Assembly: GCF_011758745.1 (NCBI RefSeq)
Contig: NZ_JAANOV010000001.1
Location: forward strand, 744,001 to 808,000
DNA: 64,000 nt
Source: Amycolatopsis granulosa
Lineage (GTDB): Bacteria > Actinomycetota > Actinomycetes > Mycobacteriales > Pseudonocardiaceae
Direction of reading: 5' to 3'
The translations under genes were made by a program, and so were the position numbers. Shown here piece after piece: positions 22,209 through 50,913 of the stretch; position 1 is the first letter of the stretch; each line of letters opens with the position of its first letter. The notes below the pieces were generated by a model that was not told where the DNA came from, made no database searches, and saw only the letters and a program-made list of their open reading frames with translations.

Positions 22209-22222
22209 AGCAAGCGCTTGGT
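22209..22222. promoter_or_regulatory. KstR2-type box (14 bp) between SDR and echA20
   Basis: AGCAAGCGCTTGGT matches the published KstR2 consensus AnCAAGnnCTTGnT at every fixed position. It lies 31 bases upstream of the SDR-fadE30-fadE33 operon. Confidence 0.8.
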
Positions 22223-22262
22223 AGAAACACCGCTGACGGGCGCCAGGATCCTCCGCAACCAA

Positions 22263-22278
22263 CCAAGCAAATGCTAGG
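22263..22278. promoter_or_regulatory. Long-form (16 bp) box upstream of echA20
   Basis: CCAAGCAAATGCTAGG is an imperfect palindrome with the same outer half-sites as the 14-bp boxes but a centre 2 bp longer. It lies 37 bases before echA20. Confidence 0.6.
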
Positions 22279-22314
22279 CTAGCCGCCGACCGTCACCCCC
22301 AGCGAAGGAGCCCC

Positions 22315-23061
22315 ATGCCCATCATCCCGGCGACCCGGGACGACGGCATCCGCGTCGTCACCGTGGACTACCCGCCCGTCAACGCACTGCCCGTGGCCGC
22401 GTGGCACGACCTCGCCGAGGCGATCACGGAGGCCGGCCGCGACGAGCGCACCCACGTCGTCGTGCTGCGCGCCGAAGGACGCGGTTTCAACGCCGGCGTG
22501 GACATCAAGGAGATGCAGGAAACCTCCGGGTTCCACGCGCTGCTCGGCGCCAACCGCGGCTGCTACCGGGCCTTCAAGGCGGTCTACGAGTGCCCGGTCC
22601 CGGTCGTCGCCGCCGTGCAGGGGTTCTGCCTCGGCGGCGGGGTCGGGCTGGTCGGCAACGCGGACACGATCATCGCCAGTGACGACGCCTACTTCGGGGT
22701 GCCCGAGGTCGACCGCGGCGCGCTCGGTGCGGCCACCCACCTCGCGCGCCTCGTGCCGCCGCACCTCATGCGCACGCTCTACTACACGAGCCGCACGATC
22801 ACGGCCGAGCAGCTGCTCACCCACGGTTCGGTGCTCGAGGTCGTGCCGCGAGCGGAACTGGACGAGGCCGCGCTGCGCGTCGCCGCGGAGATCGCGGCGA
22901 AGGACCCCCGCGTGATCCGCGCGGCGAAGGAGGCGCTGAACGGCATCGACCCGGTCGACGTCAACCACAGCTACCGCTTCGAGCAGGGCTTCACGTTCGA
23001 GCTGAACCTCGCCGGCGTGGCCGACGAGCACCGCGACCGGTTCGTGGAGCAGGGTGGGTGA
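22315..23061 (+). CDS. echA20: EchA20, ring-D opening crotonase (HIEC-CoA hydrolase)
   Basis: The 248-residue crotonase-fold protein is strikingly like mycobacterial EchA20. It has VDYPPVNALPVAAWHDLAEA, the CoA-oxyanion segment LRAEGRGFNAGVDIKEMQ, GFCLGGGVGLVGNADTIIAS, GVPEVDRGALGAATHLARLV and a C-terminus ending EQGFTFELNLAGVADEHRDR. EchA20 hydrolyses the CoA ester HIEC-CoA by retro-Claisen cleavage, opening ring D to give COCHEA-CoA, the IpdAB substrate. Two operator-type palindromes separate it from the divergent SDR-fadE30 operon. It is convergent with fadA6 across a terminator hairpin. Confidence 0.9.
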   Translation: MPIIPATRDDGIRVVTVDYPPVNALPVAAWHDLAEAITEAGRDERTHVVVLRAEGRGFNAGVDIKEMQETSGFHALLGANRGCYRAFKAVYECPVPVVAAVQGFCLGGGVGLVGNADTIIASDDAYFGVPEVDRGALGAATHLARLVPPHLMRTLYYTSRTITAEQLLTHGSVLEVVPRAELDEAALRVAAEIAAKDPRVIRAAKEALNGIDPVDVNHSYRFEQGFTFELNLAGVADEHRDRFVEQGG

Positions 23062-23067
23062 CCCGGC

Positions 23068-23099
23068 GGTGCCGGGCCACCCGCGAGCGGCCCGGCACC
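23068..23099. terminator. Hairpin between echA20 and fadA6
   Basis: GGTGCCGGGCC (23068-23078) pairs perfectly with GGCCCGGCACC (23089-23099) around a 10-base loop, between convergent gene ends. Confidence 0.7.
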
Positions 23100-23106
23100 A
23101 GGGTGG

Positions 23107-24258
23107 TCAGAGGCGTTCGACGATGGTGACGTTGGCCTGACCGCCGCCCTCGCACATCACCTGCAGGCCATACCGGCCACCACGGCGTTCCAGTTCGGCG
23201 ATCATCGTGGTCATCAGCCGCGCGCCGGTGGCGCCGATCGGGTGGCCGAGCGCGATCCCGCCGCCGTTGACGTTGGTCCGCTCCAAGTCGGCACCGGTCT
23301 CCTTGGCCCACGCCAGCACCACCGACGCGAACGCCTCGTTGACCTCGAACAGGTCGATGTCGTCGACCGACAGGCCGGTGCGCGCCAGCGCGTGCCGGGT
23401 CGCCGGGATGGGGCCGGTCAGCATCCACACCGGGTCCGCGCCCCGCACCGAGAGGTGGTGGATGCGGGCGCGCGGCGTGAGACCGTGCTGCTCGACGGCC
23501 CGCGGCGACGCGATGAGCAGTGCGGCGGCCGCGTCGCTGATCTGCGAGGCCACCGCCGCGGTGATGCGCTTGCCGCCGGCGACCGGCGGCAGCGCGGCCA
23601 TCTTCGCCAGGCTGGTGTCACGCCGTGGCCCCTCGTCGGTGTCGAACCCGTCGACCGGGGCGATCTCGCCGGTGAACCGGCCGCCGTCGATCGCCGCGAT
23701 CGCCCGCCGGTGGCTCTCCAGCGCGTAGACCTCCATGTCCTCGCGGGAGATGTCCCAGTGCTCGGCGATCATCTCGGCGGCGCGGAACTGGGAGACCTCC
23801 TGGTCGCCGTAGCGCTTCAGCCAGCCCGGCGATTCGGCGAACGGCGTGCTGAACCCGTACTGCTGCCCGACGAGCATCGCCGCCGAGATGGGGATCGCGG
23901 ACATGTTCTGCACACCACCCGCCACGATCAGGTCGGCGGTGCCGGACAGCACCCCCTGCGCGGCGAAGTGCACGGCCTGCTGACCGGACCCGCACTGCCG
24001 GTCGACGGTCACGCCCGGCACGTGGTCGGGCAGCCCGGCCACCAGCCACGCGGTCCGCGCCACGTCCCCGGCCTGCGGGCCGATCGTGTCGCAGCAGCCG
24101 AAGATGACGTCGTCGACCGCTCCCGGGTCGATCCCGGTGCGGTCGACGAGCGCGCGGATCGCGTGCCCGCCCAGGTCGGCGGAGTGCTTCCCGGCCAGCG
24201 CGCCACCGCGCCGCCCGACGGGCGTGCGGACGGCGTCGACGATGTAGGCCTCGGACAC
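23107..24258 (-). CDS. fadA6: Thiolase FadA6 (ring C/D acyl-CoA thiolysis)
   Basis: The 383-residue thiolase has the nucleophilic Cys in GVTVDRQCGSGQQAVHFAAQ, the His in NGGGIALGHPIGATGARLMT and the second Cys in QVMCEGGGQANVTIVERL. The whole sequence closely parallels mycobacterial FadA6, including AGGVQNMSAIPISAAMLVGQ and RYGDQEVSQFRAAEMIAEHW. FadA6 acts on the CoA ester formed after IpdAB opens ring C. It starts at a GTG (24258) with a GAGGAG site and follows ipdF by 27 bases in the same operon, whose promoter carries a long-form box at 25168-25183. Confidence 0.9.
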   Translation of the reverse strand: MSEAYIVDAVRTPVGRRGGALAGKHSADLGGHAIRALVDRTGIDPGAVDDVIFGCCDTIGPQAGDVARTAWLVAGLPDHVPGVTVDRQCGSGQQAVHFAAQGVLSGTADLIVAGGVQNMSAIPISAAMLVGQQYGFSTPFAESPGWLKRYGDQEVSQFRAAEMIAEHWDISREDMEVYALESHRRAIAAIDGGRFTGEIAPVDGFDTDEGPRRDTSLAKMAALPPVAGGKRITAAVASQISDAAAALLIASPRAVEQHGLTPRARIHHLSVRGADPVWMLTGPIPATRHALARTGLSVDDIDLFEVNEAFASVVLAWAKETGADLERTNVNGGGIALGHPIGATGARLMTTMIAELERRGGRYGLQVMCEGGGQANVTIVERL

Positions 24259-24285
24259 GGTGTTCTCCTCAGGGGGACGATGGGA

Positions 24286-25089
24286 TCACGGGTGCTGACT
24301 GCTGGCGGAGAGGACCTCGCCGGTCAGGTAGGAGGCGTAGTCGCTGGCGAGGAAGACCATCAGGTTCGCGATCTCCCACGGTTCGGCCGCGCGGCCGAAC
24401 GCCTCACGGCTCGTGAGCTCGGCGAGCAGTTCCTCGCTGGTGACCTTGGCGAGGAACGGATGCATCGCGAGGCTGGGTGAGACCGCGTTGACGCGGATGC
24501 CGTGCGGCGCCAGGTCCATCGCGGCGCAGCGGGTCAGCGCCATCACACCGGCCTTGGCCGCGGCGTAGTGCGCCTGCCCCTCCTGTGCGCGCCAGCCCGC
24601 GATGGAAGCGTTGTTGACGATGGCGCCCCCGCGGCCCGCGGCCACCATGCGCCGGCCCGCGGCCCGCACGCAGCGGAACGTGCCGGTGAGGGTCACGTCG
24701 AGGACCTGGTGCCACTGCTGGTCGGTCATCTCCAGGACGGAGGCGGTGCCGCCGAGGCCGGCGTTGTTGATGACGACGTCCGCGCCGCCGAACCGCTCCG
24801 CCACGTCGAAGAGCGCCTCGACCTGCTCCTCGTCGGTCACGTCGCACCGGATCGAGGCCACCCGGTCACCGCCGAACTCCCCGGCCAGCGCCTGATGCGC
24901 CTCGGCGAGGCGGCGTTCGTGCGTGTCACTGACGACCACGGCCGCCGCCCCCTCCTCCAGGCAACGGCGAGCCGCGGCCGCGCCGATGCCCGCCCCCGCG
25001 GCCGCGGTGATCACGACCGTGCGGCCCTCGAGCAGACGGTGCGCGGGCGGGTAGTCCGGCGCGCGCTGTTCCTTCTCCGTAGTCGTCAC
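24286..25089 (-). CDS. ipdF: 5-OH-HIC-CoA dehydrogenase (SDR)
   Basis: The 267-residue SDR has VVITAAAGAGIGAAAARRCL at the cofactor site, NNAGLGGTASVLEMTDQQWH, and the catalytic set in NNASIAGWRAQEGQAHYAAA plus KAGVMALTRC. It ends FLASDYASYLTGEVLSASSQ followed by HP. These features track mycobacterial IpdF (Rv3559c) closely. IpdF oxidises the 5-hydroxyl of 5-OH-HIC-CoA to give HIC-CoA. The GTG at 25089 has GGGAG upstream and gives an N-terminus like its homologues; an upstream ATG at 25233 would run through the operator region and is rejected. It is the first gene of the ipdF-fadA6 operon. Confidence 0.88.
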   Translation of the reverse strand: MTTTEKEQRAPDYPPAHRLLEGRTVVITAAAGAGIGAAAARRCLEEGAAAVVVSDTHERRLAEAHQALAGEFGGDRVASIRCDVTDEEQVEALFDVAERFGGADVVINNAGLGGTASVLEMTDQQWHQVLDVTLTGTFRCVRAAGRRMVAAGRGGAIVNNASIAGWRAQEGQAHYAAAKAGVMALTRCAAMDLAPHGIRVNAVSPSLAMHPFLAKVTSEELLAELTSREAFGRAAEPWEIANLMVFLASDYASYLTGEVLSASSQHP

Positions 25090-25167
25090 GGCAACTCCCT
25101 CGGGCTCCTCGGGCCGGCCGGCCGCGGGATCTGGCCAAGCATCGGCGGGCTCCCGTACAGTACCAAA

Positions 25168-25183
25168 CCAAGCATTTGTTAGG
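25168..25183. promoter_or_regulatory. Long-form (16 bp) box in the ipdF / echA divergent promoter
   Basis: CCAAGCATTTGTTAGG resembles the element upstream of echA20 read from the other strand. It abuts the ribosome-binding site of the plus-strand crotonase gene and lies 79 bases upstream of ipdF. Confidence 0.6.
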
Positions 25184-25189
25184 GAGAGG

Positions 25190-26071
25190 ATGTGGAGAGG
25201 CATGCCGAGCACACCGGATGAGCCGGTGGTCACCTACGAGCGCCGGGATGCGGTCGCCCTCGTGACCCTCAACCGCCCGGAGTACCGCAACGCGCAGAAC
25301 TCGAAGATGACCTACGCGCTCGACGCGGCGTTCACCCGAGCGGTCGACGACGACGAGGTCAAGGTGATCGTGCTGGCCGGCAGCGGACGGCACTTCTGCG
25401 CCGGGCACGACATCGGTACCCCGGACCGGGACGCCGACGAAAGCTTCGAGCGCAAGGCCGTGATCTGGTGGGACCACACCGGCCGGGCGGGCGTGGACCG
25501 GCGGTTCGCCCGCGAGTCCGAGGTCTACCTCGGCATGTGCCGCCGGTGGCGGGAGATCCCGAAGCCGATGATCGCCATGGTGCAGGGCGCGTGCATCGCC
25601 GGCGGGCTCATGCTCGCGTGGTCGTGCGATTTCATCGTGGCCTCCGACGACGCGTTCTTCGCCGACCCCGTGGTGCGGATGGGCATCCCGGGCGTGGAGT
25701 ACTTCGCGCACCCGTGGGTGCTGAACCCCCGCGCGGCCAAGGAATTCCTCTACACCGGCGACCGGATGCCGGCCCGCCGGGCGTACGAGCTGGGCATGGT
25801 CAACCACGTCGTGGAACGCGCCGAGCTGGAATCGCACACCCTGGCCCTGGCGGCGCGCATCAGCGCGATGCCCGCCTTCGGGCTCGCGCTGACCAAGCGA
25901 GCGGTCAACCAGGCCGAGGACCTGCAGGGCATGCGCGCCGGCATGGACTCGGTGTTCGGGTTGCACCACGCCGCCCACGCGCACAACGCGGAGGTCGGCG
26001 GCGACTCGCTGGCCGGCATGGACGCCCGCGCGATGCGCTCGGGTGCCCGGCCCGGAGGCGGGGCGGCGTGA
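25190..26071 (+). CDS. Enoyl-CoA hydratase/isomerase (crotonase) of the fadE31-fadE32 operon
   Basis: The 293-residue crotonase has LVTLNRPEYRNAQNSKMTYA, the oxyanion segments SGRHFCAGHDIGTPD and VQGACIAGGLMLAWSCDFIV, and a family-typical C-terminal helix region. It is longer than most crotonases because of an insert around FERKAVIWWDHTGRAGVDRR. It probably hydrates an enoyl-CoA formed by FadE30 or FadE31/FadE32 during HIP degradation. Two in-frame ATGs (25190 and 25202) both have GGAG nearby, so the start is uncertain by four codons. Its stop overlaps the fadE31 start (GTGA). Confidence 0.85.
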   Translation: MWRGMPSTPDEPVVTYERRDAVALVTLNRPEYRNAQNSKMTYALDAAFTRAVDDDEVKVIVLAGSGRHFCAGHDIGTPDRDADESFERKAVIWWDHTGRAGVDRRFARESEVYLGMCRRWREIPKPMIAMVQGACIAGGLMLAWSCDFIVASDDAFFADPVVRMGIPGVEYFAHPWVLNPRAAKEFLYTGDRMPARRAYELGMVNHVVERAELESHTLALAARISAMPAFGLALTKRAVNQAEDLQGMRAGMDSVFGLHHAAHAHNAEVGGDSLAGMDARAMRSGARPGGGAA

Positions 26072-27219
26072 ACCTCGACTTCACCGAAGGCGAACTGGCG
26101 TTTCGCGACGAGGCACGGGAATGGCTCCGCGAGCACGTCCCGGCCGGGCCGATGCCACCGCTGGACACCGCCGAGGGGTTCGCCGCCCGCCGCGAGTGGG
26201 AGGCCACCCTCGCCGCGGCACGCTGGTCGGTCGTGGCCTGGCCGGAGAAGTACCACGGCCGGGACGCCTCGATGGTCGAGTGGGTGCTGTTCGAGGAGGA
26301 GTACTACCGCAGTGGCGCGCCCGTGCGGGCCGCCCAGAACGGCATCTCGCTGCTCGCGCCCATCATCTTCGAACACGGCACACCCGAGCAGCAGGACCGG
26401 TACCTGCCCGCGATGGCGGACGGCACCGAGATCTGGGCGCAGGCGTGGTCGGAGCCGGAGGCGGGCAGCGACCTCGCGTCGATCCGCAGCACCGCCACCC
26501 GGGACGAGGCCCGCGGCGGCTGGCTGCTCAACGGGCAGAAGACGTGGAGCTCGCGCGCCGCGTTCGCCGACCGGGCGTTCGGGCTGTTCCGGTCCGATCC
26601 CACGGCCGAACGGCACCGCGGCCTGACGTACTTCCTGTTCCCGCTCGACGCCGAGGGCCTGAGCATCCGGCCCATTGCCCAGCTCGACGGGCACCCCGGG
26701 TTCGCTGAGCTGTTCTTCGACGACGTGTTCGTGCCCGACGCGGACGTGCTCGGCGCGCCCGGAGACGGCTGGCGGGTCGCGATGAGCACCGCGGGCAACG
26801 AACGCGGTCTGTCGCTGCGCTCGCCCGGCCGGTTCTGCGCCGCCGCCGACCGGTTGCTGGCGCTGTGGCGGGAGCGGGGTGCCGGGCACCCGCACCTGCG
26901 CGACCGCGTGGTCGATGCCTGGCTCGCGGCGCAGGCCTACCGGCTGTACACGTGGGGCACCGTGACCCGGCTGGCGGCCGGAGGGGACGTCGGCGCGCAC
27001 GGCAGCGTCAACAAGCTGTTCTGGTCGCAGCTCGACGTGGGGTTGCACGAGGTGGCGCTCGACCTGCTCGGCCCCGAGTCGGAGTTGCGGGACGAGCCGT
27101 GGCTGGACGGGTACCTGTTCTCGCTGTCCGGCCCGATCTACGCGGGCACCAACGAGATCCAGCGCAACATCGTGGCCGAGCGCCTGCTCGGCCTGCCGAA
27201 GGGAGGCCGGGGCCGGTGA
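26068..27219 (+). CDS. fadE31: Acyl-CoA dehydrogenase FadE31
   Basis: The 383-residue acyl-CoA dehydrogenase begins NLDFTEGELAFRDEAREWL. It has VVAWPEKYHGRDASMVEWVL, the flavin-contact segment WAQAWSEPEAGSDLASIRST and SGPIYAGTNEIQRNIVAERL at the C-terminus. It closely follows FadE31 of the mycobacterial KstR2 regulon. FadE31 pairs with a short FadE (FadE32 or FadE33) into a heteromeric dehydrogenase acting on a ring C/D breakdown intermediate. The GTG at 26068 overlaps the crotonase stop, and the fadE31 stop overlaps the fadE32 start, so the three are translated as a coupled unit. Confidence 0.88.
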   Translation: MNLDFTEGELAFRDEAREWLREHVPAGPMPPLDTAEGFAARREWEATLAAARWSVVAWPEKYHGRDASMVEWVLFEEEYYRSGAPVRAAQNGISLLAPIIFEHGTPEQQDRYLPAMADGTEIWAQAWSEPEAGSDLASIRSTATRDEARGGWLLNGQKTWSSRAAFADRAFGLFRSDPTAERHRGLTYFLFPLDAEGLSIRPIAQLDGHPGFAELFFDDVFVPDADVLGAPGDGWRVAMSTAGNERGLSLRSPGRFCAAADRLLALWRERGAGHPHLRDRVVDAWLAAQAYRLYTWGTVTRLAAGGDVGAHGSVNKLFWSQLDVGLHEVALDLLGPESELRDEPWLDGYLFSLSGPIYAGTNEIQRNIVAERLLGLPKGGRGR

Positions 27220-28187
27220 AGTTCGCCCTGAACGACGAGCAGCGCGACTTCGCGAAGTCGCTGGACGACCTCCTCGGCGCGGCCGACGTGCCCGCGGCGG
27301 CCCGCGCGTGGGGCGAGGGCGACCACGCGGCCGGCCGGAAGCTGTGGACGCGGCTCGCGGACCTGGGGGTGCACGGGCTGTGCGTGCCGGAGGACGCGGG
27401 CGGGCTCGGCGCGACCCCGGTGGACGTGGTGGTGGCGTTCGAGCAGCTGGGCCGCCACCTCGTGCCCGGCCCGCACGTCGAGTCGATCGTCGTGGCCCCC
27501 GTGGTGCTGGCCGCGGTCGACCCGGGCGCGCTCGAGCGGCTGGCTTCGGGCGAGCTGGTCGTGACGCTCGCCGCGCCGCCGCACACGCCCTACGCCCTGG
27601 ACGCCGACATCGCCGATCTCGTGCTCCTCCTCGACGGGGGCACGCTGTGCACCGCGACCGCCGGGGCACTGCACCGCTCGGTCGACACGGCACGCCGCCT
27701 GTTCCCCGTCACCGCCGCCGAGCACCTGGCGACCCTGCCGGAGGACACCGTGGCCGCCGCGTTCGACGCGGCGGCGCTCGCGTGCTCCGCGCAACTGCTG
27801 GGCGCGGGGGAACGCCTGCTGGCCGAGGCGGTGGAGTACGCGAAGACGCGCCGGCAGTTCGGCCGGGCGATCGGCGAGTTCCAGGCACTCAAGCACGCAC
27901 TGGCCGACGTCCGCGTCGGCCTCGACTTCGCGCGGCCGCTGCTGTACGGCGCCGCGCTGTCGCTGGGCTCGGCCGATTCCGCGCGGGACACCTCGGCGGC
28001 GAAGGTCGCCGCGGCGGATGCCGCCTACCGCGCGGCGCGCACCGCCCTCCAGGTCCACGGCGCGATCGGCTACACACTCGAACACGACCTCGGCCTGTGG
28101 ATCACGAAGGTCCGCGCGCTCGTCTCCGCGTGGGGTACGCCGTCCGTGCACCGGACGCGGGTGCTGGCGGCGCTGGGCACGGCCTGA
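27216..28187 (+). CDS. fadE32: Acyl-CoA dehydrogenase FadE32 (short partner subunit)
   Basis: The 323-residue protein is a short FadE. It begins KFALNDEQRDFAKSLDDLLG, has GVHGLCVPEDAGGLGATPVD, and carries the C-terminal motifs RRQFGRAIGEFQALKHALAD and QVHGAIGYTLEHDLGLWITK. Like FadE32 of the KstR2 regulon it lacks part of the middle beta domain and is expected to work with FadE31. In Mycobacterium FadE32 is needed for a dehydrogenation after ring opening by IpdAB. It starts at the GTG overlapping the fadE31 stop and ends before a strong hairpin shared with the convergent tetR operon. Confidence 0.85.
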   Translation: MKFALNDEQRDFAKSLDDLLGAADVPAAARAWGEGDHAAGRKLWTRLADLGVHGLCVPEDAGGLGATPVDVVVAFEQLGRHLVPGPHVESIVVAPVVLAAVDPGALERLASGELVVTLAAPPHTPYALDADIADLVLLLDGGTLCTATAGALHRSVDTARRLFPVTAAEHLATLPEDTVAAAFDAAALACSAQLLGAGERLLAEAVEYAKTRRQFGRAIGEFQALKHALADVRVGLDFARPLLYGAALSLGSADSARDTSAAKVAAADAAYRAARTALQVHGAIGYTLEHDLGLWITKVRALVSAWGTPSVHRTRVLAALGTA

Positions 28188-28240: not shown

Positions 28241-28822
28241 TCAGGGCGCGGTGAACCCGTCCAGGAACACGCGCGCGGTGTCGGCGGCGAGCTGTTCGAT
28301 CCCGTACGCCTCCGACGGGTGGAACCAGCGGGGCGCGAGGAACACGGCGTCGCGGAGGAACCGGTGGAAGACGCGCGGGTTCACGTCCCGCCGGAACGCG
28401 CCCTCCTCGACCCCGAGCGTGATGGCCTGCTGCCACGTCTCGAAGATCCGCGTCGCGAGTTCCCGGGTCGGTGAGCACTGCTCGTGCGCGGCGAAATATC
28501 CGCGGTTGCCCTGGTAGATCTCGCTCGCGTGGGGATGGTCCCGCGACGCCTCGAGCGAGTCCAGGATCAGCGCGTGCAACCGCGCCCGGCCGTCCACGGC
28601 GGAAGCCATCGTGACCTCGTACCGCTCGAGGAGCGACCGCAGGTACGCGGACACGATCTCGGACACCATCGTGTCCTTGGAATCGAAGTAGTGGTACAGG
28701 CTCCCCGACAGGATCCCGGCGACCTCCGCGATGTCGCGCACGGTGCAGCCGCTGATCCCCTTCTGCGCGAACAGCGGCGCCGCCCGCCGGAGGATCTCGG
28801 TCCGGCGCTCCTGCCCGGCCAC
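28241..28822 (-). CDS. KstR2-like TetR regulator (second copy)
   Basis: The 193-residue TetR protein has TVRDIAEVAGILSGSLYHYF in its DNA-binding domain, which is nearly the recognition helix of the KstR2 at 36295 (TVRDIADEAGILSGSLYHHF). The C-terminal domain also shares the pattern RFLRDAVFLAPRWFHP with YRFIRDTVWSTVRWYRP of KstR2. It is therefore a KstR2 paralogue that may bind related palindromes. The GTG at 28822 has GAGGGG 7 bases upstream; a GTG at 28837 overlaps the preceding stop but lacks a site. It is the last gene of the ipdA-ipdB-ipdC-MaoC-MaoC operon, which suggests feedback control. Confidence 0.82.
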   Translation of the reverse strand: MAGQERRTEILRRAAPLFAQKGISGCTVRDIAEVAGILSGSLYHYFDSKDTMVSEIVSAYLRSLLERYEVTMASAVDGRARLHALILDSLEASRDHPHASEIYQGNRGYFAAHEQCSPTRELATRIFETWQQAITLGVEEGAFRRDVNPRVFHRFLRDAVFLAPRWFHPSEAYGIEQLAADTARVFLDGFTAP

Positions 28823-29684: not shown

Positions 29685-29692
29685 GTTTCTCC

Positions 29693-43118: not shown

Positions 43119-44929
43119 GCCTGCTCTCCCTGCGCTCCGGCGAGGTCGGCCTCGCCCTCGATCCCGAGGTACTCGCTCGCGACCCGGGGGTCGTTCTCGA
43201 TGACCTCGGGCGGACCGGAAGCCATCACCTGCCCGTGGGCGAGCACGACGATGTCGTCGGCGAGGTCCAGCACGAGGCGGAAGTTGTGCTCGACGAGCAC
43301 CACCGTGCCGCCCGCGTCCCGGATGCGCCGGACCAGCCCGGCGAGCCGCTCGATCTCGTCCTCGTCCAATCCGGACGCCGCCTCGTCGAGCAGCAGCACG
43401 CCACCGCCGCCGATGAGCGCCCGCACGACCTCCAGCAGCCGCCGCATGCCCAGCGGCAGGGACGCGGCCTCCACGTCGCGCAGCCCGGTCATGCCCGCGA
43501 GTGCGAGCAGGCGCTCCGCTTCCAGCCGGTCCTCGCGCCGCACCCGCCGGAAGCGGGGGCCGCGGAACACCGCGGACAGGATCGACGCGCGGTGCGCGGT
43601 GTACCGGCCGGAGATGACCGCTTCCAGCACGGTGATGCCCTCGGGGATGTTCGGCGTCTGGAACGTCCGGGCCACCCCGGCGCGGGCCACCTCGTGCGGC
43701 GCCAGGCCGTGGGTCTGCCTGCGCCCCACCGAGATCGTGCCGGCGTCGGTGCGGTAGAAGCCGCACACCATGTTGAGCAGGGTGGTCTTGCCCGAGCCGT
43801 TGGGACCGATGAGCGCGGTGACCCGGCCCGGGCGCGCGTGCAGGGTGACGCCCTTGAGCGCCTGGTTGCCGCCGAACGCCTTCGACACGTCCTCGACGGC
43901 GAGCGTGGCGCCGCTGAGCGGGGGCAGGCCGGCATCCGCCGGCGCGGCGGGTCCGGAGCGGACGTTCGCCACCCGGTCCAGCCACCTGACCAGCCGCTTG
44001 CCGAGGTTCGCGAGCCCGCCCTTGAGCAGCACCCCGCCGACGATCAGGAACACACCCGTGAACACGAGGGCGTACTGCTGGAACTCGCTGGCCTGGTTGG
44101 GCCCGAACTGCATGATCGCCGCGCCGACGACCGCGCCGTACACGCTCGCCGACCCGCCGAGGATCGACGCCGCCAGCACGGTCGTGGCGAGCACGAACCC
44201 GAACCCCTCCGGCGAGATGTACAGGTCGACGTTCGCGAACAGCGCACCGGCCAGGCCGGCGGGGAGCGCACCGAGCGCGTAGGCGAGCAGCTTCATCCGG
44301 AACACCGAAATGCCCATCGACGACGCCAGCACCGGGCTCTGCTTGAGCACCCGGAACGCCACGCCGTGCCGCGACACGACGATGTTGCGCAGCACGCCGA
44401 ACCACAGGATCGTCACCACGACGATCACCAGGTACAGGTCGTCGGTGGTGAGCGGGGTACCGAGCAGCGTGGCCGGTTCGATGCCGCTGAGCCCGTTGCG
44501 GCCACCGGTGGCGTCGGCGAAGATCGTCAGCAGGTCCGGGACGAGCAGCACGAGGAAGAACGACGTCATGGCCAGCGACCAGCTGCCCAGCCGGAGCCCC
44601 GGGACACCGGTGATCAGACCGACCAGCAACGCGACGGCGCCACCCGCCAGGAGCTGCACGAGGATGTCCGTGACGCCGGCCTTGGACACGAGTCCCGCGG
44701 TGTAGGCGCCGGCCGCGTACATCGCGGCCTGTCCCACCGCCAGTTCGCCCGCGAATCCCAGGCTCAGGTTCAGCCCGCTCACGAGCAACGCGAGGATGCA
44801 CGCGAGGGTGATCTGCCGCGAGAACGAGAAGCCGAGCCCGCCGAGCGGCAGCAGCGCGACGACGACACCGAGCGCGAGGGGCAGGACCCAGCTGGGCACC
44901 GCCCGCAGCGCTCGCCACACAGTCAGCAT
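43115..44929 (-). CDS. Fused permease-ATPase LivM-LivG of a HAAT-type ABC importer
   Basis: The 604-residue protein joins a LivM-type membrane domain (about residues 1-310, with LALLVSGLNLSLGFAGELAV and about eight to ten hydrophobic segments) to a LivG-type ATPase. The ATPase has the Walker A motif LIGPNGSGKTTLLNMVCGFY, the signature-like LPLGMRRLLEVVRALIGGGG and LLLDEAASGLDEDEIERLAG. The canonical LSGGQ is degenerate (LPLGMRR), which is common in such fusions. A LivM-LivG fusion is known in actinobacteria. It begins one base after the livH stop codon. Confidence 0.88.
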   Translation of the reverse strand: MLTVWRALRAVPSWVLPLALGVVVALLPLGGLGFSFSRQITLACILALLVSGLNLSLGFAGELAVGQAAMYAAGAYTAGLVSKAGVTDILVQLLAGGAVALLVGLITGVPGLRLGSWSLAMTSFFLVLLVPDLLTIFADATGGRNGLSGIEPATLLGTPLTTDDLYLVIVVVTILWFGVLRNIVVSRHGVAFRVLKQSPVLASSMGISVFRMKLLAYALGALPAGLAGALFANVDLYISPEGFGFVLATTVLAASILGGSASVYGAVVGAAIMQFGPNQASEFQQYALVFTGVFLIVGGVLLKGGLANLGKRLVRWLDRVANVRSGPAAPADAGLPPLSGATLAVEDVSKAFGGNQALKGVTLHARPGRVTALIGPNGSGKTTLLNMVCGFYRTDAGTISVGRRQTHGLAPHEVARAGVARTFQTPNIPEGITVLEAVISGRYTAHRASILSAVFRGPRFRRVRREDRLEAERLLALAGMTGLRDVEAASLPLGMRRLLEVVRALIGGGGVLLLDEAASGLDEDEIERLAGLVRRIRDAGGTVVLVEHNFRLVLDLADDIVVLAHGQVMASGPPEVIENDPRVASEYLGIEGEADLAGAQGEQA

Positions 44930-44930
44930 G

Positions 44931-45788
44931 TCAGACAGCCCTTTCCCGGGTACGGACGAACAGCCCGGCCGGACGGGCCATCAGGATCGTGATGAACACG
45001 GCGAACACGGCGATCGTCGCGAACTCGCCGCCGAGGTAGCGGCTCGCCAGCGCCTCCACGAGGCCGACGATCAGGCCGCCGACGAGGGTGCCCGGAATCG
45101 AGCCGAACCCGCCGATCGCCAGCACCACGAACCCCTTGAGCGCCAGGGCGGTGCCGAGGGTCGCCACGGCGTAGGTCTCCGGTCCGACGAACAGGCCGAG
45201 CACCCCGGCGAGCGCACCCGCGCAGGCGAACGAGCCGAACACCAGCCGTCGCACGTTCACCCCGCGCAGCATCGCGGCCTCGCGGTCCTCGGACATCGCG
45301 AGCAGCGCGAGACCGAGCACGAAGCGCTTGCTCGCCCAGGTCAGCAGCAGGACCAGCAGCACCGCGACCGCGACGAGCGCGAGCTCGACCGGGTAGGCCC
45401 GGCCGCCGAGGATCGTGAGCACCCCGTCGCCACCGAAGAACGGGACGGGCAGCGGCTGGGTGCCCCAGATGAGCTGGGCGGCACCGTCGAGCAGCACCGA
45501 CGCGCCGAGGGTGGTGACCAGCACCGCATGCGGGTCCTTCAGCGGCCGGATGGCGACCCGCTCCTCGATCGCCGCGACGGTGAACACGACCGCGAGCGCC
45601 AGCAGCGCCACGACGGGCGCCGGGAGGTGCAGCGTCACCAGCCCGGTGTAGGCGACGAAGCTGCCGATCATGATCAGCTGCGCCTGCGCGAAGTTGAAGG
45701 TCTTCGACGAGATGAAGACGATGTTGTAGCCGATGGCGACGAACGCGTAGACCGCGCCCAGCGCGAGTCCACCGAAGATCAGGGTCAT
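44931..45788 (-). CDS. livH: ABC transporter permease LivH
   Basis: The 285-residue protein is an integral membrane permease with eight or so hydrophobic segments. It begins MTLIFGGLALGAVYAFVAIG and has FNFAQAQLIMIGSFVAYTG and a C-terminal segment with LVGGLIVGLVEALASRYLGG, typical of LivH. It lies between livK and livMG. The 85-bp livK-livH gap contains a hairpin that may set the high expression of the binding protein relative to the membrane parts. Confidence 0.88.
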   Translation of the reverse strand: MTLIFGGLALGAVYAFVAIGYNIVFISSKTFNFAQAQLIMIGSFVAYTGLVTLHLPAPVVALLALAVVFTVAAIEERVAIRPLKDPHAVLVTTLGASVLLDGAAQLIWGTQPLPVPFFGGDGVLTILGGRAYPVELALVAVAVLLVLLLTWASKRFVLGLALLAMSEDREAAMLRGVNVRRLVFGSFACAGALAGVLGLFVGPETYAVATLGTALALKGFVVLAIGGFGSIPGTLVGGLIVGLVEALASRYLGGEFATIAVFAVFITILMARPAGLFVRTRERAV

Positions 45789-45820
45789 CGGAGCTGGAAC
45801 CTTCCGCGTGGGAAAGGGAA

Positions 45821-45857
45821 CTTCGCCCGCCCGTCCCGGCGGGACCGGCGGGCGAAG
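45821..45857 (-). terminator. Intercistronic hairpin between livK and livH
   Basis: CTTCGCCCGCC (45821-45831) pairs perfectly with GGCGGGCGAAG (45847-45857), and a smaller stem (GTCCCG with CGGGAC) forms inside the loop. Such hairpins after a binding-protein gene often stabilise its mRNA or attenuate downstream transcription. Confidence 0.6.
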
Positions 45858-45873
45858 CCAACGGACGTGCCGG

Positions 45874-47085
45874 TCACGGCCGGAACTGGCCGCTGTCGAG
45901 CCGGCTGGGTTTGATGAAGACGAACGCGTCCGCCGTGGCGTTCGGCGAGTGCGACGTGGCGCTGTAGTGGTAGTCGTGCAGGATGGCGGTTTTCGCCCTG
46001 GCCAGGACCTCCGGCTTCTCGATCGCCTTCGCGATCGCGCTGGGGTCGTCGGCCTTGCCCACGTCGGCGGCTGCCGCGGCCACCAGGGCAAGGGCGTCGT
46101 AGTTGTAGGCGTTGATCAGGGTGGACGGGATGACCCCGCCCTCGGCCTTGGCCTTCATCGCCGCCACGGCGGTGTTCACCGAGGTGTCGGCCGGGTCGTA
46201 GACGGTGCTGTCGAAGACCTCCATCATGAGGTTCGCGACCTGGTCCGTGCCGAGCACGCCGTCCGGCGGAGGGGTCGACACCAGGCTGGTGGCGGACACC
46301 GCGGTGTCGCCGAGCACCGGCACGGTCCAGCCGATCTTGGCGAGGCTCTTCAGCACGTAGCCGACCGGCGCACCGTACGCGGTCATGGCGATCGCGTCCG
46401 GCGAGGAGCCGCGCAGGTTCTGCAACTGGGGCGTCATGTCGAGCGCCTTCGCGTCGAACTGCTGCTCCCCGACCACCTGCAGGCCGGCCGCGGTGAGGGC
46501 CTGGTGCATCTCCCGCACGAAACTGGCGCCGTAGCTCGTGCTGCCGTAGAGGATGCCGATCTTCTGGTAGCCCTTCTCCTTCGCGTGGGCGATGAAGCCC
46601 TTCGCGTAGTCGGTGGGCGACGGCGAGAGGTCGAAGTTCAGCGGGAACTTCCCCGGATCCGCGGACTCGTTGGTCGGGCCGATGTTGAACGAGAGGATCT
46701 TGTTCTGTTGCAGGATCGGCAGCGTCGCCGAGGCGATGACGGACGGGCCGGAGTTCAGGTAGAGGTCCGGCTTGCGCTTCGCGATCGCCTCCCGCAGTTT
46801 GGTCACCGCGGTCGTGGGATCGCCGCCGTCGTCCACCACGGTCACCTCGATGCGGCGGCCCGCGATGCCGCCCGTCTTGTTGATCTCGTCCGCGCTCGCC
46901 TGCGCGGAGATCACCGAGGTCTTGGAGTTCGTCGCGAGCACACCCTGGGCGCTCAACCCACCGGTGACGAGCACCCGGTACGGATCACCGGCGCCGCCAC
47001 CCGAGGACGCGGCGCCACCGCAGCCTGCGAGGACCAGCGCAGCGCTGGAGACGACCGCGCCCAGTACGAGAACATGTCTGTTCAT
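45874..47085 (-). CDS. livK: ABC transporter substrate-binding lipoprotein LivK-type
   Basis: The 403-residue protein has a lipoprotein signal with LVLAGC as the lipobox near residue 22, followed by a Gly/Ser linker. The periplasmic-binding fold of the Leu/Ile/Val family follows, with TVVDDGGDPTTAVTKLREAI and YQKIGILYGSTSYGASFVRE. It is anchored outside the membrane and delivers its ligand to LivH/LivM. Ligand identity cannot be read, but the promoter carries KstR2-type boxes at 47114 and 47189. A steroid catabolite or steroid acid is therefore likely. Confidence 0.85.
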   Translation of the reverse strand: MNRHVLVLGAVVSSAALVLAGCGGAASSGGGAGDPYRVLVTGGLSAQGVLATNSKTSVISAQASADEINKTGGIAGRRIEVTVVDDGGDPTTAVTKLREAIAKRKPDLYLNSGPSVIASATLPILQQNKILSFNIGPTNESADPGKFPLNFDLSPSPTDYAKGFIAHAKEKGYQKIGILYGSTSYGASFVREMHQALTAAGLQVVGEQQFDAKALDMTPQLQNLRGSSPDAIAMTAYGAPVGYVLKSLAKIGWTVPVLGDTAVSATSLVSTPPPDGVLGTDQVANLMMEVFDSTVYDPADTSVNTAVAAMKAKAEGGVIPSTLINAYNYDALALVAAAAADVGKADDPSAIAKAIEKPEVLARAKTAILHDYHYSATSHSPNATADAFVFIKPSRLDSGQFRP

Positions 47086-47113
47086 GACCCAACTTTCGAC
47101 ATTGAAAGGGACA

Positions 47114-47127
47114 ACCAAGCGCTTGCT
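47114..47127. promoter_or_regulatory. KstR2-type box proximal to livK
   Basis: ACCAAGCGCTTGCT matches the consensus exactly and lies 28 bases before the livK start codon. Confidence 0.8.
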
Positions 47128-47188
47128 ACTTGGCAGGAGAGCGTAGATGAGCCACACCACCCCGTCAAGCAAACCCGGTAACCAAACG

Positions 47189-47202
47189 AGCAAGCGCTTG
47201 GC
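47189..47202. promoter_or_regulatory. KstR2-type box distal to livK
   Basis: AGCAAGCGCTTGGC matches the CAAGnnCTTG core exactly, with a change only in the last flanking base. It lies 103 bases before livK. Confidence 0.72.
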
Positions 47203-47398
47203 AGACACAAAATCGCAGGTCACGAGCACTTCCGGTGCGGGATCTACCGGCAGACCGTCACACCACGGAACCAGCCGGACACCCACGGCTGAACCGCTTC
47301 CCGGCGGGCAACGGACCCCGCGTTCGCCGGACGCTCCCGCCCGATCCCCCCGGCCGCGCGCAGGAGCGTTGACCGGCGGCGGCGCACCACCTATTCTC

Positions 47399-47412
47399 AC
47401 CAAGCGCTTGCT
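47399..47412. promoter_or_regulatory. KstR2-type box at the SDR-SDR-SnoaL operon
   Basis: ACCAAGCGCTTGCT is identical to the livK-proximal box and to the ipdA box. It lies 24 bases before the SDR start. Confidence 0.8.
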
Positions 47413-47436
47413 TGTCTCGATGGTCACGGAAGGCGG

Positions 47437-48210
47437 ATGATGAAGGACTTCGACGGCAGGCCCGGTGCCGCGGTGGTGACCGGCGGGACGGGCGGGCTCG
47501 GCGCGGCGATCTGCCGCACCCTCGCGTCCCGCGGAAGCCGGATCGCGCTGACGTATCACGGGAACCAGGAGCGCGCCGACGCCCTCGCGGCCGAACTCAC
47601 CGCCGAGGGGCGCACGGCGGTCGCCGACCGGCTCGACCTCACCGACGCCGCCGCGACGCGCGCCTACGTCGACAGCGTCACCGAGCGCTTCGGCGCCGTG
47701 CACACCGTCGTGCACGCCGCCGGACCCCACATTCCCCAGATCCACCTGTCGCTGGTCGACCCGGACCGGTTCGCCCGCCACCTGGCCGGTGAGGCCGCGG
47801 CGTTCTTCAACCTCGCCCACGCCGCGCTGCCCGCCCTGCGGGCGAGCAAGGGCTCGATCGTCGCCGTCACCACCGCGGCCACCCGCCGCTACCCCGTGCG
47901 GGACGGGCTGTCCGCCGGCCCCAAAGGCGCCGTGGAAGCGACCGCGCGGGCGCTCGCCGCCGAGGAGGGCCGGTTCGGGGTGCGCGTCAACTGCGTCGGT
48001 CCCGGGATGCTCACCGACGGCATGGCCGCCGAACTGATGGCCGGCGGCGACCTCGACGAGCGGGCACTGGAGGTCACCCGCCGCAACATCCCGTTGCGCA
48101 CCTTCGGCGGGGCGCAGGACATCGCGGAGGCCGTGTGCTTCCTCGCCTCCGACCGAGCCCGGTTCATCAGCGGGCAGAAGCTCGACGTCGACGGCGGGTA
48201 CGGCGTCTGA
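47437..48210 (+). CDS. SDR-fold protein lacking the usual catalytic Tyr
   Basis: The 257-residue protein has the SDR cofactor motif VVTGGTGGLGAAICRTLASR and ends ARFISGQKLDVDGGYGV. In the active-site region TTAATRRYPVRDGLSAGPKG the Lys is present (GPKGAVEAT), but the residue four before it is Ser. The only nearby Tyr lies eight positions earlier (YPVRDGLS). The family also contains NADPH-dependent reductases with unusual active sites, so activity is possible. Start choice between ATGs at 47437 and 47440 changes one residue. It is the first gene of a three-gene operon with a KstR2-type box directly upstream. Confidence 0.78.
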   Translation: MMKDFDGRPGAAVVTGGTGGLGAAICRTLASRGSRIALTYHGNQERADALAAELTAEGRTAVADRLDLTDAAATRAYVDSVTERFGAVHTVVHAAGPHIPQIHLSLVDPDRFARHLAGEAAAFFNLAHAALPALRASKGSIVAVTTAATRRYPVRDGLSAGPKGAVEATARALAAEEGRFGVRVNCVGPGMLTDGMAAELMAGGDLDERALEVTRRNIPLRTFGGAQDIAEAVCFLASDRARFISGQKLDVDGGYGV

Positions 48211-48241
48211 CCACCATCCACCCGTGACCGGAGGAGCATTC

Positions 48242-48988
48242 GTGCCGAACAACCCCATCCACTTCGGATTCGCCCCGGGCGAGGTCCTGGTCGTCACCGG
48301 CGCCGGCAGCGGCATCGGCCGGGCCATCGCACTCCGCGCGGCGGAACTGGGCCTCGCCGTCGCCGCGTGGGACCTCGACAGCGCGGCCGTCACCGCGACC
48401 GCCGAGCGGATCGTGCACGCCGGCGGCACGGCACTCGCCGTCACCGCCGACGTCTGCGTCCCCGCGGATGTCGAGCGCGGCTTCGCCGGGAGCCGCGCGC
48501 TGGGCGCCATCCGGTACCTCGTCAACAACGCCGGCCCGTCGTCGGCGAGCGACCTGGGCTTCGACGAGGGTGTGCGGATGGCCGTGGGCAGCGTCCGGCT
48601 GGTGACCGAGACGTGGTTGTCCGGCGGCGTGCCGGAGGGCGCCGCGCTGGTGAACGTCTCGTCGGTCGCCGGCAACCTCATGGGCACCGACTCGGCGTGG
48701 TACTGCGCGGCGAAGGCGGGGATCGCCGGCTACACCCGGCACCTCGCGACCTACCGCGCGGGCGAGGTGCGCAGCAACGCGATCGCCCCCGGGATGACGG
48801 ACACGCCGCGGCTGCGGGGGTTCGCGGCCAGCGAGGTCGGGCAGCGCTCGCTCGCGAAGAACCCGCTGGGCCGCATGGCCACCGCGGACGACATCGCGTG
48901 GGCCACCCTGTTCCTGCTGAGCCCGCTCGCCTCGTACGTCAACGGCGTCTACCTGCCCGTCGACGGCGGGTGGGCGGTGACCCAGTGA
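48242..48988 (+). CDS. Short-chain dehydrogenase
   Basis: The 248-residue classical SDR has VLVVTGAGSGIGRAIALRAA at the cofactor site, VNNAGPSSASDLGFDEGV, the catalytic set in VNVSSVAGNLMGTDSAWYCA and AKAGIAGYTRHLA, and the C-terminal YVNGVYLPVDGG. It starts at the GTG at 48242 after GGAGGAG. It is the second gene of the SDR-SDR-SnoaL operon. A hydroxysteroid dehydrogenase role is suggested by the regulon, and the substrate position is unknown. The stop overlaps the start of the SnoaL-like gene (GTGA). Confidence 0.83.
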   Translation: MPNNPIHFGFAPGEVLVVTGAGSGIGRAIALRAAELGLAVAAWDLDSAAVTATAERIVHAGGTALAVTADVCVPADVERGFAGSRALGAIRYLVNNAGPSSASDLGFDEGVRMAVGSVRLVTETWLSGGVPEGAALVNVSSVAGNLMGTDSAWYCAAKAGIAGYTRHLATYRAGEVRSNAIAPGMTDTPRLRGFAASEVGQRSLAKNPLGRMATADDIAWATLFLLSPLASYVNGVYLPVDGGWAVTQ

Positions 48989-49551
48989 GCGATGACCCGG
49001 TGAGCGATGACCCGGTGACCGGTGCCGCCGCGGACCGGTGGGCGATCCACGACGTGGTGCTGCGCTACTGCCGCGGCGTCGACCGGCTCGACTTCGACCT
49101 CGTGCGCTCGGCCTACCACCCGGGCGCGATCGACCATCACACCGGCTTCGACGGACCGGTGGACGACTACGTCGAGTGGGTGCGGCCGCTGCTCGCCACC
49201 TACACCGGCACGATGCACCTCGTCGGCAACCACCTCGCCGAGGTGTACGGGACGCACGCGGTCGCCGAAACCTACGGGACGGCCGTGCACTGGGGTGAGC
49301 CCGCCGCCGATCCGCGGCGGAACTTCGTCAGCGGCTTCCGCTACGTCGACCACCTGGAGAAGCGGGACGGCCGCTGGGCGATCGTCGAGCGGTTCGCCGT
49401 GCGGGAGTGGACCCGTTCGACGGTGGGCACGCAGCTCGCCCCCGAGGGCGAGGGCCCGCGCGGCAGGCGGGATGCCGGAGATCCGGTGTACCTGCTGACC
49501 CACCGGGCCGCGACCGCCGGAAGCGCTCGGCCCCCGGTGGGGGAACGGTAG
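48985..49551 (+). CDS. SnoaL/NTF2-like protein with duplicated start region
   Basis: The 188-residue protein has the BaiE-like positions Tyr28-x4-Asp33 (YCRGVD) and His78/His83 (MHLVGNHLAEV). A C-terminal arm rich in Arg and Gly follows the fold. A 15-bp unit (GTGAGCGATGACCCG) is repeated exactly at 48985 and 49000, so two in-frame GTG starts give VSDDP-VSDDP at the N-terminus; the first overlaps the SDR stop. It is the third SnoaL-like protein of this regulon and may dehydrate or isomerise a hydroxysteroid. Confidence 0.72.
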   Translation: MSDDPVSDDPVTGAAADRWAIHDVVLRYCRGVDRLDFDLVRSAYHPGAIDHHTGFDGPVDDYVEWVRPLLATYTGTMHLVGNHLAEVYGTHAVAETYGTAVHWGEPAADPRRNFVSGFRYVDHLEKRDGRWAIVERFAVREWTRSTVGTQLAPEGEGPRGRRDAGDPVYLLTHRAATAGSARPPVGER

Positions 49552-49614
49552 CCGCCGGACTTACCGGCGCTCCCGTGGTGTGGTGGGCCGGGCCGCGCGC
49601 GGGCGGTGCCGTGC

Positions 49615-49653
49615 GGCCGGCCTGCCCGCCCGGAGGGGTCGGGCAGGCCGGCC
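49615..49653. terminator. Hairpin between the SnoaL gene and the thiolase gene
   Basis: GGCCGGCCTGCCCG (49615-49628) pairs perfectly with CGGGCAGGCCGGCC (49640-49653) around an 11-base loop, between convergent gene ends. Confidence 0.75.
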
Positions 49654-49658
49654 CGGGC

Positions 49659-50879
49659 TCACGACAGGCGGTCGATCACGAGCGCCATCCCCTGGCCACC
49701 GGCCGCGCACATGGTGACCACACCGGTCTGCGCGTCGACCGCGCGCAGGCCGTTGATGAGTGTGGTGGTCATCCGCGCACCGGTCATGCCGAACGGATGG
49801 CCGAGCGCGATCGCGCCACCGTGGACGTTCACGCGGTCCAGATCGATCCCCAGGTCGTCGCACGACGGCAGGACCTGTGCGGCGAACGCCTCGTTGATCT
49901 CCACGAGGTCGAGGTCGGCGACGGTCATCCCGGCGTGCGCGAGCGCCCGGCGCACCGCCTCCACCGGCCCGAGGCCCATGATCTCGGGCGAGAGCGCCGA
50001 CACCCCGGTCGACACGATCCGGGCGAGTGGCGTGATGCCCAGATCGCGCGCCCGGTCGGCGGACATGACGATCAGCGCCGCGGCGCCGTCGTTGAGCGGG
50101 CAGCAGTTGGCGGCGGTGACCGTGCCGTCCGGGCGGAACACCGGGTCGAGCGCGGCGACCGACTCCAGGGTGACGCCCGCACGCGGCCCGTCGTCCGCCG
50201 CGACGGTGGTGCCGTCCGGGGTCACGACGGGCGTGATGTCGGTCGCGAAGAACCCGGCGGCGATGGCGCGCTGGGCGTTGTGCTGGCTGCGCACGGCGAA
50301 CTCGTCCTGCCGCTGCCGGGACACGCCGCGCAGCTGCGCGACGTTCTCCGCGGTCTGTCCCATCGCGACGTAGGGGTCGGGCAGCAGGCCCAGCGCACGC
50401 GGATCCTGCCACGGCGGTGCGCCGGCCGCCGACCGTCCGGCCGTGCGCGCCTCCGCCTCGGCGTAGCGGGGGTTGTGCGTGCCGGGCATGCCGTCGGCCT
50501 TGCCGCTGCCGTAGCGCGACACGGTCTCCACACCCGCCGAGACGAACACCTGCCCTTCCCCGGCGCGAATCGCGTGCAGCGCCATGCGGGTGGTCTGGAC
50601 GCTGGACGCGCAGTAGCGGTGCACGACCGTGCCGGGTACGGTGTCGAGCCCCGCGGCGACGGCGAGCTGGCGGCCGAGGTTGTAACCCTGTTCCCCGGCG
50701 GGCTGGCCGCAGCCGACCATGATGTCGTCGATGGTCGCCGGGTCGAGCTCGGGCACCTGTTTCAGCGCGGCCTCGAAGACCTGGACGAGCAGGTCGTCGG
50801 CGCGCAGGTCACGCAGCGAACCCTTGCCGGCGCGGCCGATGGGTGACCGCGTGGCGGCGACGATCACGGCTTCAGGCAT
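49659..50879 (-). CDS. Thiolase (acetyl-CoA acyltransferase)
   Basis: The 406-residue thiolase has the nucleophilic Cys in VVHRYCASSVQTTRMALHAI, the His in HGGAIALGHPFGMTGARMTT and the second Cys in VVTMCAAGGQGMALVIDRLS. It is distinct from FadA6 at 23107. The first Cys motif CASS rather than CGSG groups it with general fatty-acid thiolases. A box of the KstR2 type (one mismatch) lies 21 bases upstream of the ATG at 50879. It may complete beta-oxidation of the HIP propionyl chain or of a steroid side chain. Confidence 0.86.
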   Translation of the reverse strand: MPEAVIVAATRSPIGRAGKGSLRDLRADDLLVQVFEAALKQVPELDPATIDDIMVGCGQPAGEQGYNLGRQLAVAAGLDTVPGTVVHRYCASSVQTTRMALHAIRAGEGQVFVSAGVETVSRYGSGKADGMPGTHNPRYAEAEARTAGRSAAGAPPWQDPRALGLLPDPYVAMGQTAENVAQLRGVSRQRQDEFAVRSQHNAQRAIAAGFFATDITPVVTPDGTTVAADDGPRAGVTLESVAALDPVFRPDGTVTAANCCPLNDGAAALIVMSADRARDLGITPLARIVSTGVSALSPEIMGLGPVEAVRRALAHAGMTVADLDLVEINEAFAAQVLPSCDDLGIDLDRVNVHGGAIALGHPFGMTGARMTTTLINGLRAVDAQTGVVTMCAAGGQGMALVIDRLS

Positions 50880-50899
50880 GGACCCTCCCAAATTGAACA

Positions 50900-50913
50900 A
50901 GCAAGCGATTGGT
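50900..50913. promoter_or_regulatory. KstR2-type box at the thiolase gene
   Basis: AGCAAGCGATTGGT has the same single change in the right half-site as the kstR2 autoregulatory box. It is the rightmost box seen and marks the likely edge of the regulon. Confidence 0.7.

Follow-up and report, generated by a model that had tools for sequence, protein, structure and literature searches.

A candidate KstR2-type regulon with enlarged gene content in Amycolatopsis granulosa

Genes and predicted operators of the cluster

We analysed a 64-kb stretch of the Amycolatopsis granulosa genome (positions 744,001–808,000 of contig NZ_JAANOV010000001.1, assembly GCF_011758745.1; 'the window' below, whose numbering is used unless a genome position is named), in which a cluster at about 20.1–50.9 kb contains kstR2 alongside genes for the catabolism of methylhexahydroindanedione propionate (HIP), that is, of the last two steroid rings. 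In Mycobacterium tuberculosis, KstR2 binds the KstR2 motif and HIP-CoA is its effector. The left part of the cluster comprises an enoyl-CoA hydratase family gene (22315–23061, + strand; NF005925 over cut-off) that is presumably echA20, as its position also suggests; a thiolase gene and a short-chain dehydrogenase/reductase (SDR) gene (23107–25089, −; NF005865 and NF005880 over cut-off) that we take to be fadA6 and ipdF, names favoured by homology to R. jostii neighbours; an enoyl-CoA hydratase gene with two acyl-CoA dehydrogenase genes (25202–28187, +); and a MaoC plus FAS1-type dehydratase pair with the presumed ipdC, ipdB and ipdA (28834–32369, −), names that also draw on a published table and synteny. 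The last gene of this ipdABC operon (28241–28822, −) encodes a second KstR2-family TetR protein, P0001, a paralogue of KstR2. Next come an operon of SDR, esterase and Baeyer–Villiger monooxygenase (BVMO) genes (32510–35838, −; LipP1 just over cut-off), the TetR-family repressor gene kstR2 (36295–36933, −; product P0002) and a fadD3-like HIP-CoA ligase gene (37120–38736, +; 642 bits to NF005801, just under the cut-off of 657). The right part holds SnoaL and SDR genes (−) followed by luciferase-like monooxygenase (LLM), SnoaL and SDR genes (+) at 38758–42335; livF, a livM–livG fusion, livH and livK (42381–47085, −); an SDR–SDR–SnoaL operon (47440–49551, +); and an acetyl-CoA acyltransferase (thiolase) gene (49659–50879, −; NF005890 over cut-off).

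The initial annotation had placed kstR2 at 36295, and this assignment was borne out. P0002 matched the solved M. tuberculosis KstR2 (4w97/4w1u) at 191.5 bits and 2ibd, presumably a Rhodococcus structure, at 205.7 bits. In a TetR tree of 71 rows, made by a quick method with a midpoint root and containing several long branches, P0002 fell in a 25-row KstR2 clade (SH-aLRT 100) together with R. jostii KstR2 (locus L051), whose gene is flanked by homologues of ipdF and fadA6.

The palindrome ANCAAGNNCTTGNT occurred exactly six times in the window (22209, 32408, 35861, 37089, 47114 and 47399), against 0.01 expected. The whole genome (5,623,989 bases, a single contig) held eight exact copies, six of them in the window and the others at genome positions 2686134 and 3011646; a backward control gave one. 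Three more short sites (36965, 47189 and 50900) differ from ANCAAGNNCTTGNT by one change each, giving nine short sites in all where the initial annotation spoke of ten but itself listed nine. Matches with one change were at background level genome-wide (131 versus 132 in the backward control), so such sites need other support. A 24-bp symmetric matrix, built without the window from the seven distinct sequences among nine KstR2 sites published for M. smegmatis, M. tuberculosis and R. jostii (PMC3068626), placed exactly the nine short sites and five longer ones (22263, 25168, 32460, 35928 and 40115) at ranks 1–14 in the window, at 30.8 to 15.2 bits, with rank 15 (9.4 bits) inside a gene. Over 40 first-order Markov shuffles, the top score averaged 8.9, with one shuffle at 18.8, exceeding the three weakest sites. 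The same matrix detected a site above 15 bits in 75 of 80 KstR2-family loci fetched from other genomes. All 14 positions proposed at the outset, the five longer ones included, are therefore the top 14 of a matrix made from published sites, and the motif is indeed that of the published KstR2 operator.

All 14 predicted operators lie between called genes, 9–98 bp ahead of a start codon (for operator 35926, only if measured to the SDR past the neighbouring site). The published operator is present before the core HIP genes, at the echA20, echA13–fadE, ipdA, kstR2 and fadD3 promoters. A short operator at 22204–22227 (19.4 bits with the published-site matrix, as for the others below) precedes the SDR start at 22178 (−) by 25 bp, and a long one at 22257–22280 (26.2 bits) precedes the echA20 start at 22315 (+) by 34 bp; both are identical in a sister genome of the same genus, G421. 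The long operator at 25162–25185 (25.1 bits) is between ipdF (−) and the echA13–fadE–fadE operon (+). The ipdA operon has a short operator (32403–32426, 23.4 bits) and a long one (32458–32481, 19.7 bits), and the SDR–esterase–BVMO operon has a short one (35856–35879, 20.8 bits), whose equivalent in Streptomyces xiaopingdaonensis (locus L009) stands 45 bp before the same operon. The long operator at 35926–35949 (30.8 bits) is an orphan whose target, a second ipdAB, was lost here. kstR2 carries an operator in its own promoter, a short site 26 bp upstream (36960–36983) and the weakest of the 14 at 15.2 bits, while the operator 12 bp before fadD3 (37084–37107, 30.4 bits) fits both the short and the long form. 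Further right are a long operator between an SDR gene (−) and the LLM operon (+) (40113–40136, 21.8 bits), two short ones 23 and 98 bp before livK (47109–47132, 16.8 bits; 47184–47207, 19.6 bits), and short ones 22 bp before the SDR–SDR–SnoaL operon (47394–47417, 18.8 bits) and 15 bp before the thiolase gene (50895–50918, 21.0 bits). In the scanned part of the cluster (31.5–51.0 kb), two sigma-70-like promoter matches were found against 0.4 expected. At the ipdA match (32451–32424), the short operator overlaps the end of the predicted −10 and the long one lies 6 bp upstream of the −35; at the match for the SDR gene at 47440 (47369–47397), the operator covers the −10. This overlap fits repression by steric block.

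Genomic reach and conservation of the operators

We also scanned with R1, a sequence-only profile made from 81 of 88 non-redundant operators that the published matrix had found near KstR2-family genes of other genomes. With E up to 10 and 150 of 625 first-look candidates scored, R1 gave 20 hits at 11 places in this genome, ten of them in the cluster; the eleventh listed place (genome position 1,520,175) was inside a called open reading frame, and the top place among the candidates scored was the fadD3 operator. On the window with filters off, R1 recovered all 14 operators and three other places (20143, 45322 and 7139). As far as these scans reach, the predicted regulon is one cluster, with nearly all predicted operators of the genome in about 29 kb. 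The sister genome yielded six places at E ≤ 0.5, all within the same cluster. Trebonia kvetii (locus L024, genome G798) gave 43 R1 hits at 24 places at the same threshold, 21 of these places on one contig at 28–149 kb, and possibly has a KstR2-type regulon far larger than the one here.

The cluster is syntenic in the sister genome, with genes 94–100% identical (P0002, 99%) and all 14 operators found. The comparison covered seven intergenic regions, which together contain 12 of the 14 operators (the region 35839–36294, with operators 35856 and 35926, was omitted owing to a deletion); operator positions were 98% identical (282 of 288) versus 83% (663 of 796) for the remaining intergenic positions, a count in which neighbouring positions are non-independent and two indel-rich regions supply much of the difference. 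Both the sister genome and L009 carry a second ipdA and ipdB between the SDR–esterase–BVMO operon and kstR2; in G421 these matched over 272 and 244 codons without a stop. Remnants of this pair are detectable in the window at about 80–90% blastn identity to G421: 35911–35975 corresponds to the stretch just ahead of ipdA2 together with its first bases, and 35985–36289 (+) to fragments of ipdB2, ipdA2 being almost wholly missing. The second ipdAB is thus reduced to fragments, leaving operator 35926 without an intact target. Rhodococcus equi, too, is known to have a second ipdAB (PMC5380842).

The best named relative of the window KstR2 is from Saccharopolyspora shandongensis (79%). Among genomes of the same genus, G421 matched at 99% and three others at 44–49%, and six had no match at E ≤ 1e-25; the cluster genes of the Streptomyces locus L009 are 58–82% identical. 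Lateral transfer of the cluster is possible.

Added modules, a second repressor and two operator forms

The initial annotation counted a monooxygenase operon among the targets beyond the core HIP genes. The operon stands, and its identity can be refined to SDR–esterase–BVMO, with the BVMO (32510–34123) closest among solved enzymes to steroid monooxygenase 4aos (674 bits, versus 570 for phenylacetone monooxygenase). The steroid monooxygenase of Rhodococcus rhodochrous converts progesterone to testosterone acetate (PMC12239570), and the three enzymes would suit the removal of an acetyl side chain at C17 by conversion of the ketone to an acetate ester, hydrolysis and oxidation of the alcohol. Matches to the BVMO were found in 53 of 394 searched genomes (its own included). 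Among the seven best of the 52 others (61–64% identical), whose loci were fetched, the esterase gene was adjacent in six and an SDR homologue (53%) in one; none of the seven had a KstR2-type site above 14 bits.

A serious rival, to which we give substantial but clearly less than even weight, has the module acting on HIP or another intermediate of rings C and D instead of the C17 side chain. Its position under the operator of the HIP regulator and next to ipdA would suit such a role, and the proposal of a Baeyer–Villiger step in the breakdown of HIP is an old one (PMC5380842). Side-chain removal is favoured by the nearest solved enzyme, which is a progesterone converter (PMC12239570), by the esterase neighbour present in six of seven orthologue loci that lack KstR2-type sites, and by the ring-opening route through EchA20 and IpdAB, which is encoded as well. 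The LLM gene (40146–41051, TIGR03619 type) shares an operator set with the BVMO; in Caenibius tardaugens, an LLM and a BVMO are described as redundant for progesterone (PMC12239570).

The transporter is an ABC importer of the HAAT/Liv type with a complete set of LivK, LivH, LivM, LivG and LivF, none of which reached an NCBIfam equivalog cut-off. With its start at 47085, livK (45874–47085) encodes a lipoprotein signal peptide ending in LAGC; the gene is easily called too short, as with the GTG at 46974 chosen by the gene caller. Homologue loci had been picked for a nearby KstR2-family gene, so that neighbourhood is no evidence in them and operator position is. An operator lay within 350 bp upstream of livK homologues (36–55%) in four of four named loci (Trebonia kvetii, two Nakamurella and Actinokineospora), a count limited to named loci because L106–L154 partly repeat the genomes of L009–L088. 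Upstream operators were likewise present in three of four livH loci (two Nakamurella and Micromonospora yasonensis), both named LLM loci and the one locus for the SDR gene at 47440, and were absent upstream of homologues of the BVMO itself (0 of 5), the esterase (0 of 2) and the SDR gene at 41517 (0 of 8). The proposal that the sites extend well past the core HIP genes is therefore strengthened by homologues' operators in other genera and by all 14 operators in the sister genome, and weakened at 35928, where the site faces only a gene remnant.

P0001 scored 118 bits to the solved KstR2 4w97 and is 37% identical to P0002, with which it shares the recognition helix ILSGSLYH(H/Y)F. It falls outside the KstR2 clade, in a separate clade of 12 rows (SH-aLRT 99). 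At E ≤ 1e-25, no other KstR2-family match was found in this genome among the 15 of 111 first-look candidates that were scored. Genome G442, of the same genus, has five such matches, so several paralogues may coexist there, and a further TetR gene in the window (53939–54553) matches KstR and FasR weakly (43–45 bits, far below the cut-offs). Matches to P0001 were found at E ≤ 1e-40 in 18 of 298 sampled genomes of the order, all but its own 41–48% identical, and true orthologues look sporadic; the sister genome, outside this sample, has one at 97%. L009 encodes both repressors, with P0001 closing an operon of SDR, esterase, BVMO, ipdC and the dehydratase pair. In Nocardia vermiculata (locus L010), a P0001-type gene follows a BVMO gene with no HIP genes found nearby, and site scans found no operator near the P0001-type genes of this locus, whose one site is at about 643. 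At L010:5862–10579, two P0001-type TetR genes flank a gene for a thiamine-diphosphate enzyme and a steroid-monooxygenase-like gene, beside an ABC transporter of the oligopeptide type.

From the window, L009 and L010 we infer that P0001 is a partner of the BVMO module. Going further, P0001 rather than KstR2 could chiefly repress the extended, non-HIP operons, leaving the core HIP genes to KstR2; the P0001-type genes in or beside BVMO operons at all three loci and the recognition helix common to both proteins speak for this. We nevertheless consider it unlikely, given that no operator was found near the L010 genes and that loci with liv, LLM and SDR operators have TetR proteins from outside the P0001 clade.

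The longer sites had been listed apart, as longer-form relatives of the short ones; they form one operator class with them, as one matrix scores both. In the 80 fetched loci, which are non-independent and include many from Nocardia or Rhodococcus, the half-site [CG]C[AT]AGC paired with its inverse at spacing 0 in 47 cases and at spacing 4 in 66, with 36 trivial overlaps at −6 and at most six at any other spacing. These loci and the window contained 124 core sequences CAAGNNCTTG; a single flanking base gave an orientation for 77, and the other 47 were dropped; the 67 distinct forms of the oriented cores showed outer boxes CCW and WGG, one on each side. In our reading, a long site is the same operator as a short one, except that its outer half-sites are stronger and its core half-sites weaker. 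The long sites cannot readily be assigned to a second regulator on the grounds that their half-sites are 4 bp further apart, as published KstR2 sites and KstR2-clade loci share the long spacing; nor is the published dyad simply 2 bp off-centre, as sites chosen by their core have outer boxes on both sides. These boxes fit one extended palindrome, perhaps bound by two overlapping dimers. A division of the sites, with KstR2 at the short (core) operators and P0001 at the long (outer half-site) ones, is quite improbable: two paralogues and two site shapes do share one cluster, and the strict long pattern CCWARCNNNNGYTWGG occurs four times in the genome, always in the cluster (nine times in the backward control), but published KstR2 sites fit the long spacing too, Nocardia loci of the KstR2 clade (L058, L059, L071 and others) carry the long form ahead of the repressor gene, and the single matrix accommodates both shapes. 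Of the 14 sites, five would be missed or ranked poorly by the 14-bp motif if no more than one change in its core were allowed; describing the operator by outer and core half-sites recovers them, which helps annotation of steroid-degrading actinobacteria.

Proposed regulation and comparison with known systems

With good confidence, though on sequence evidence, we propose that the cluster is a KstR2-type regulon for HIP catabolism that has been enlarged by extra modules, all probably repressed by KstR2. KstR2 would bind 14 variants of one 22–24-bp operator (about ACCWAGCAAGNNCTTGGTWGGT), each placed 9–98 bp ahead of a start codon and on or close to a promoter, and so block transcription. Once FadD3 makes HIP-CoA, KstR2 would release and the operons would switch on, and the transporter, LLM, SDR/SnoaL, thiolase and SDR–esterase–BVMO operons would answer the same signal. 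P0001, encoded in the ipd operon and equipped with the same recognition helix, may act on the same operators with another ligand.

Several observations count against this proposal. The genome-wide R1 list, drawn from only 150 of 625 first-look candidates, omits four of the 14 cluster sites (22257, 25162, 36960 and 40113), and with filters off the gene-internal place 20143 scored 9.9 bits, equal to site 36960 and above site 40113 (9.1 bits). Upstream operators were found in only 2 of 11 thiolase loci and 1 of 8 loci (L009) for the first SDR of the BVMO operon. The cluster contains two candidate repressors, so KstR2 may not act at every site. Motif prediction alone can mislead: only 10 of the 29 Nocardioides simplex operons with predicted KstR2 sites rose on phytosterol (PMC7807495). 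As a prediction, and only as such, the enlarged regulon is well supported.

The genome also encodes KstR and two copies of KshA (window 16596–17744 and genome position 5.127 Mb), and the idea that the organism is only a HIP scavenger was rejected on this basis. The KshA gene in the window, for a 3-ketosteroid 9alpha-hydroxylase oxygenase, has an IclR-type gene at 18177 and none of the 14 operators nearby.

A more far-reaching reading, which we offer tentatively and with low confidence, joins these elements. One operator class served by two KstR2-family repressors with different ligands may form a two-signal switch, with the SDR–esterase–steroid monooxygenase operon as a captured module for pregnane side chains and the Liv system as an importer of steroid fragments, so that the cell could use progesterone-type steroids, as well as HIP-like fragments that other degraders release, with the ring-C/D regulator and not KstR in control. 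If so, with a steroid-monooxygenase module under a C/D-ring regulator, the control of side chain and rings would be organised differently outside mycobacteria. Uptake of HIP-like steroid fragments can now be tested directly, through an importer that has KstR2-type operators in several genera.

In the open literature that we consulted, mostly at title level, KstR2 control of a Liv transporter or a steroid monooxygenase was not found. For the parts of the proposal, known systems offer partial likenesses. The R. rhodochrous steroid (progesterone) monooxygenase 4aos is the closest solved relative of the window BVMO by sequence. The pdc progesterone cluster of C. tardaugens, an Alphaproteobacterium, is unlike the window in having LuxR-type and other regulators; it too has an LLM (PMC12239570), and the LLM here is of the TIGR03619 type. 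R. jostii RHA1 has dedicated transporters for excreted steroid fragments, camABCD and camM, as proposed here for the Liv system; these are linked to cholic acid metabolites, and the likeness is one of described function (PMC8399759).

For the whole, a close comparison is the KstR2 regulon described in M. smegmatis, M. tuberculosis and R. jostii (Kendall 2010, PMC3068626), which shares with the window the operator, KstR2, the HIP genes fadD3, fadA6, ipdA–C, ipdF, echA20 and fadE genes, and divergent promoters with operators between them. It comprises three sites and 15 genes, whereas the window has 14 sites and about 30 genes, adding the transporter, LLM, SnoaL, thiolase and SDR–esterase–BVMO operons and the second KstR2-family TetR. 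The predicted KstR2 regulon of N. simplex VKM Ac-2033D is similarly enlarged (29 operons) and includes a second ipdAB, but its operons are spread over several gene clusters, unlike the single cluster here (PMC7807495, PMC7593942). In Mycobacterium sp. VKM Ac-1817D, all eight operons with predicted KstR2 sites are reported to be upregulated. Because enlarged KstR2 regulons were predicted earlier in N. simplex and Mycobacterium sp. VKM Ac-1817D, the predicted regulon described here is of a kind already known, and its particular variant is new.

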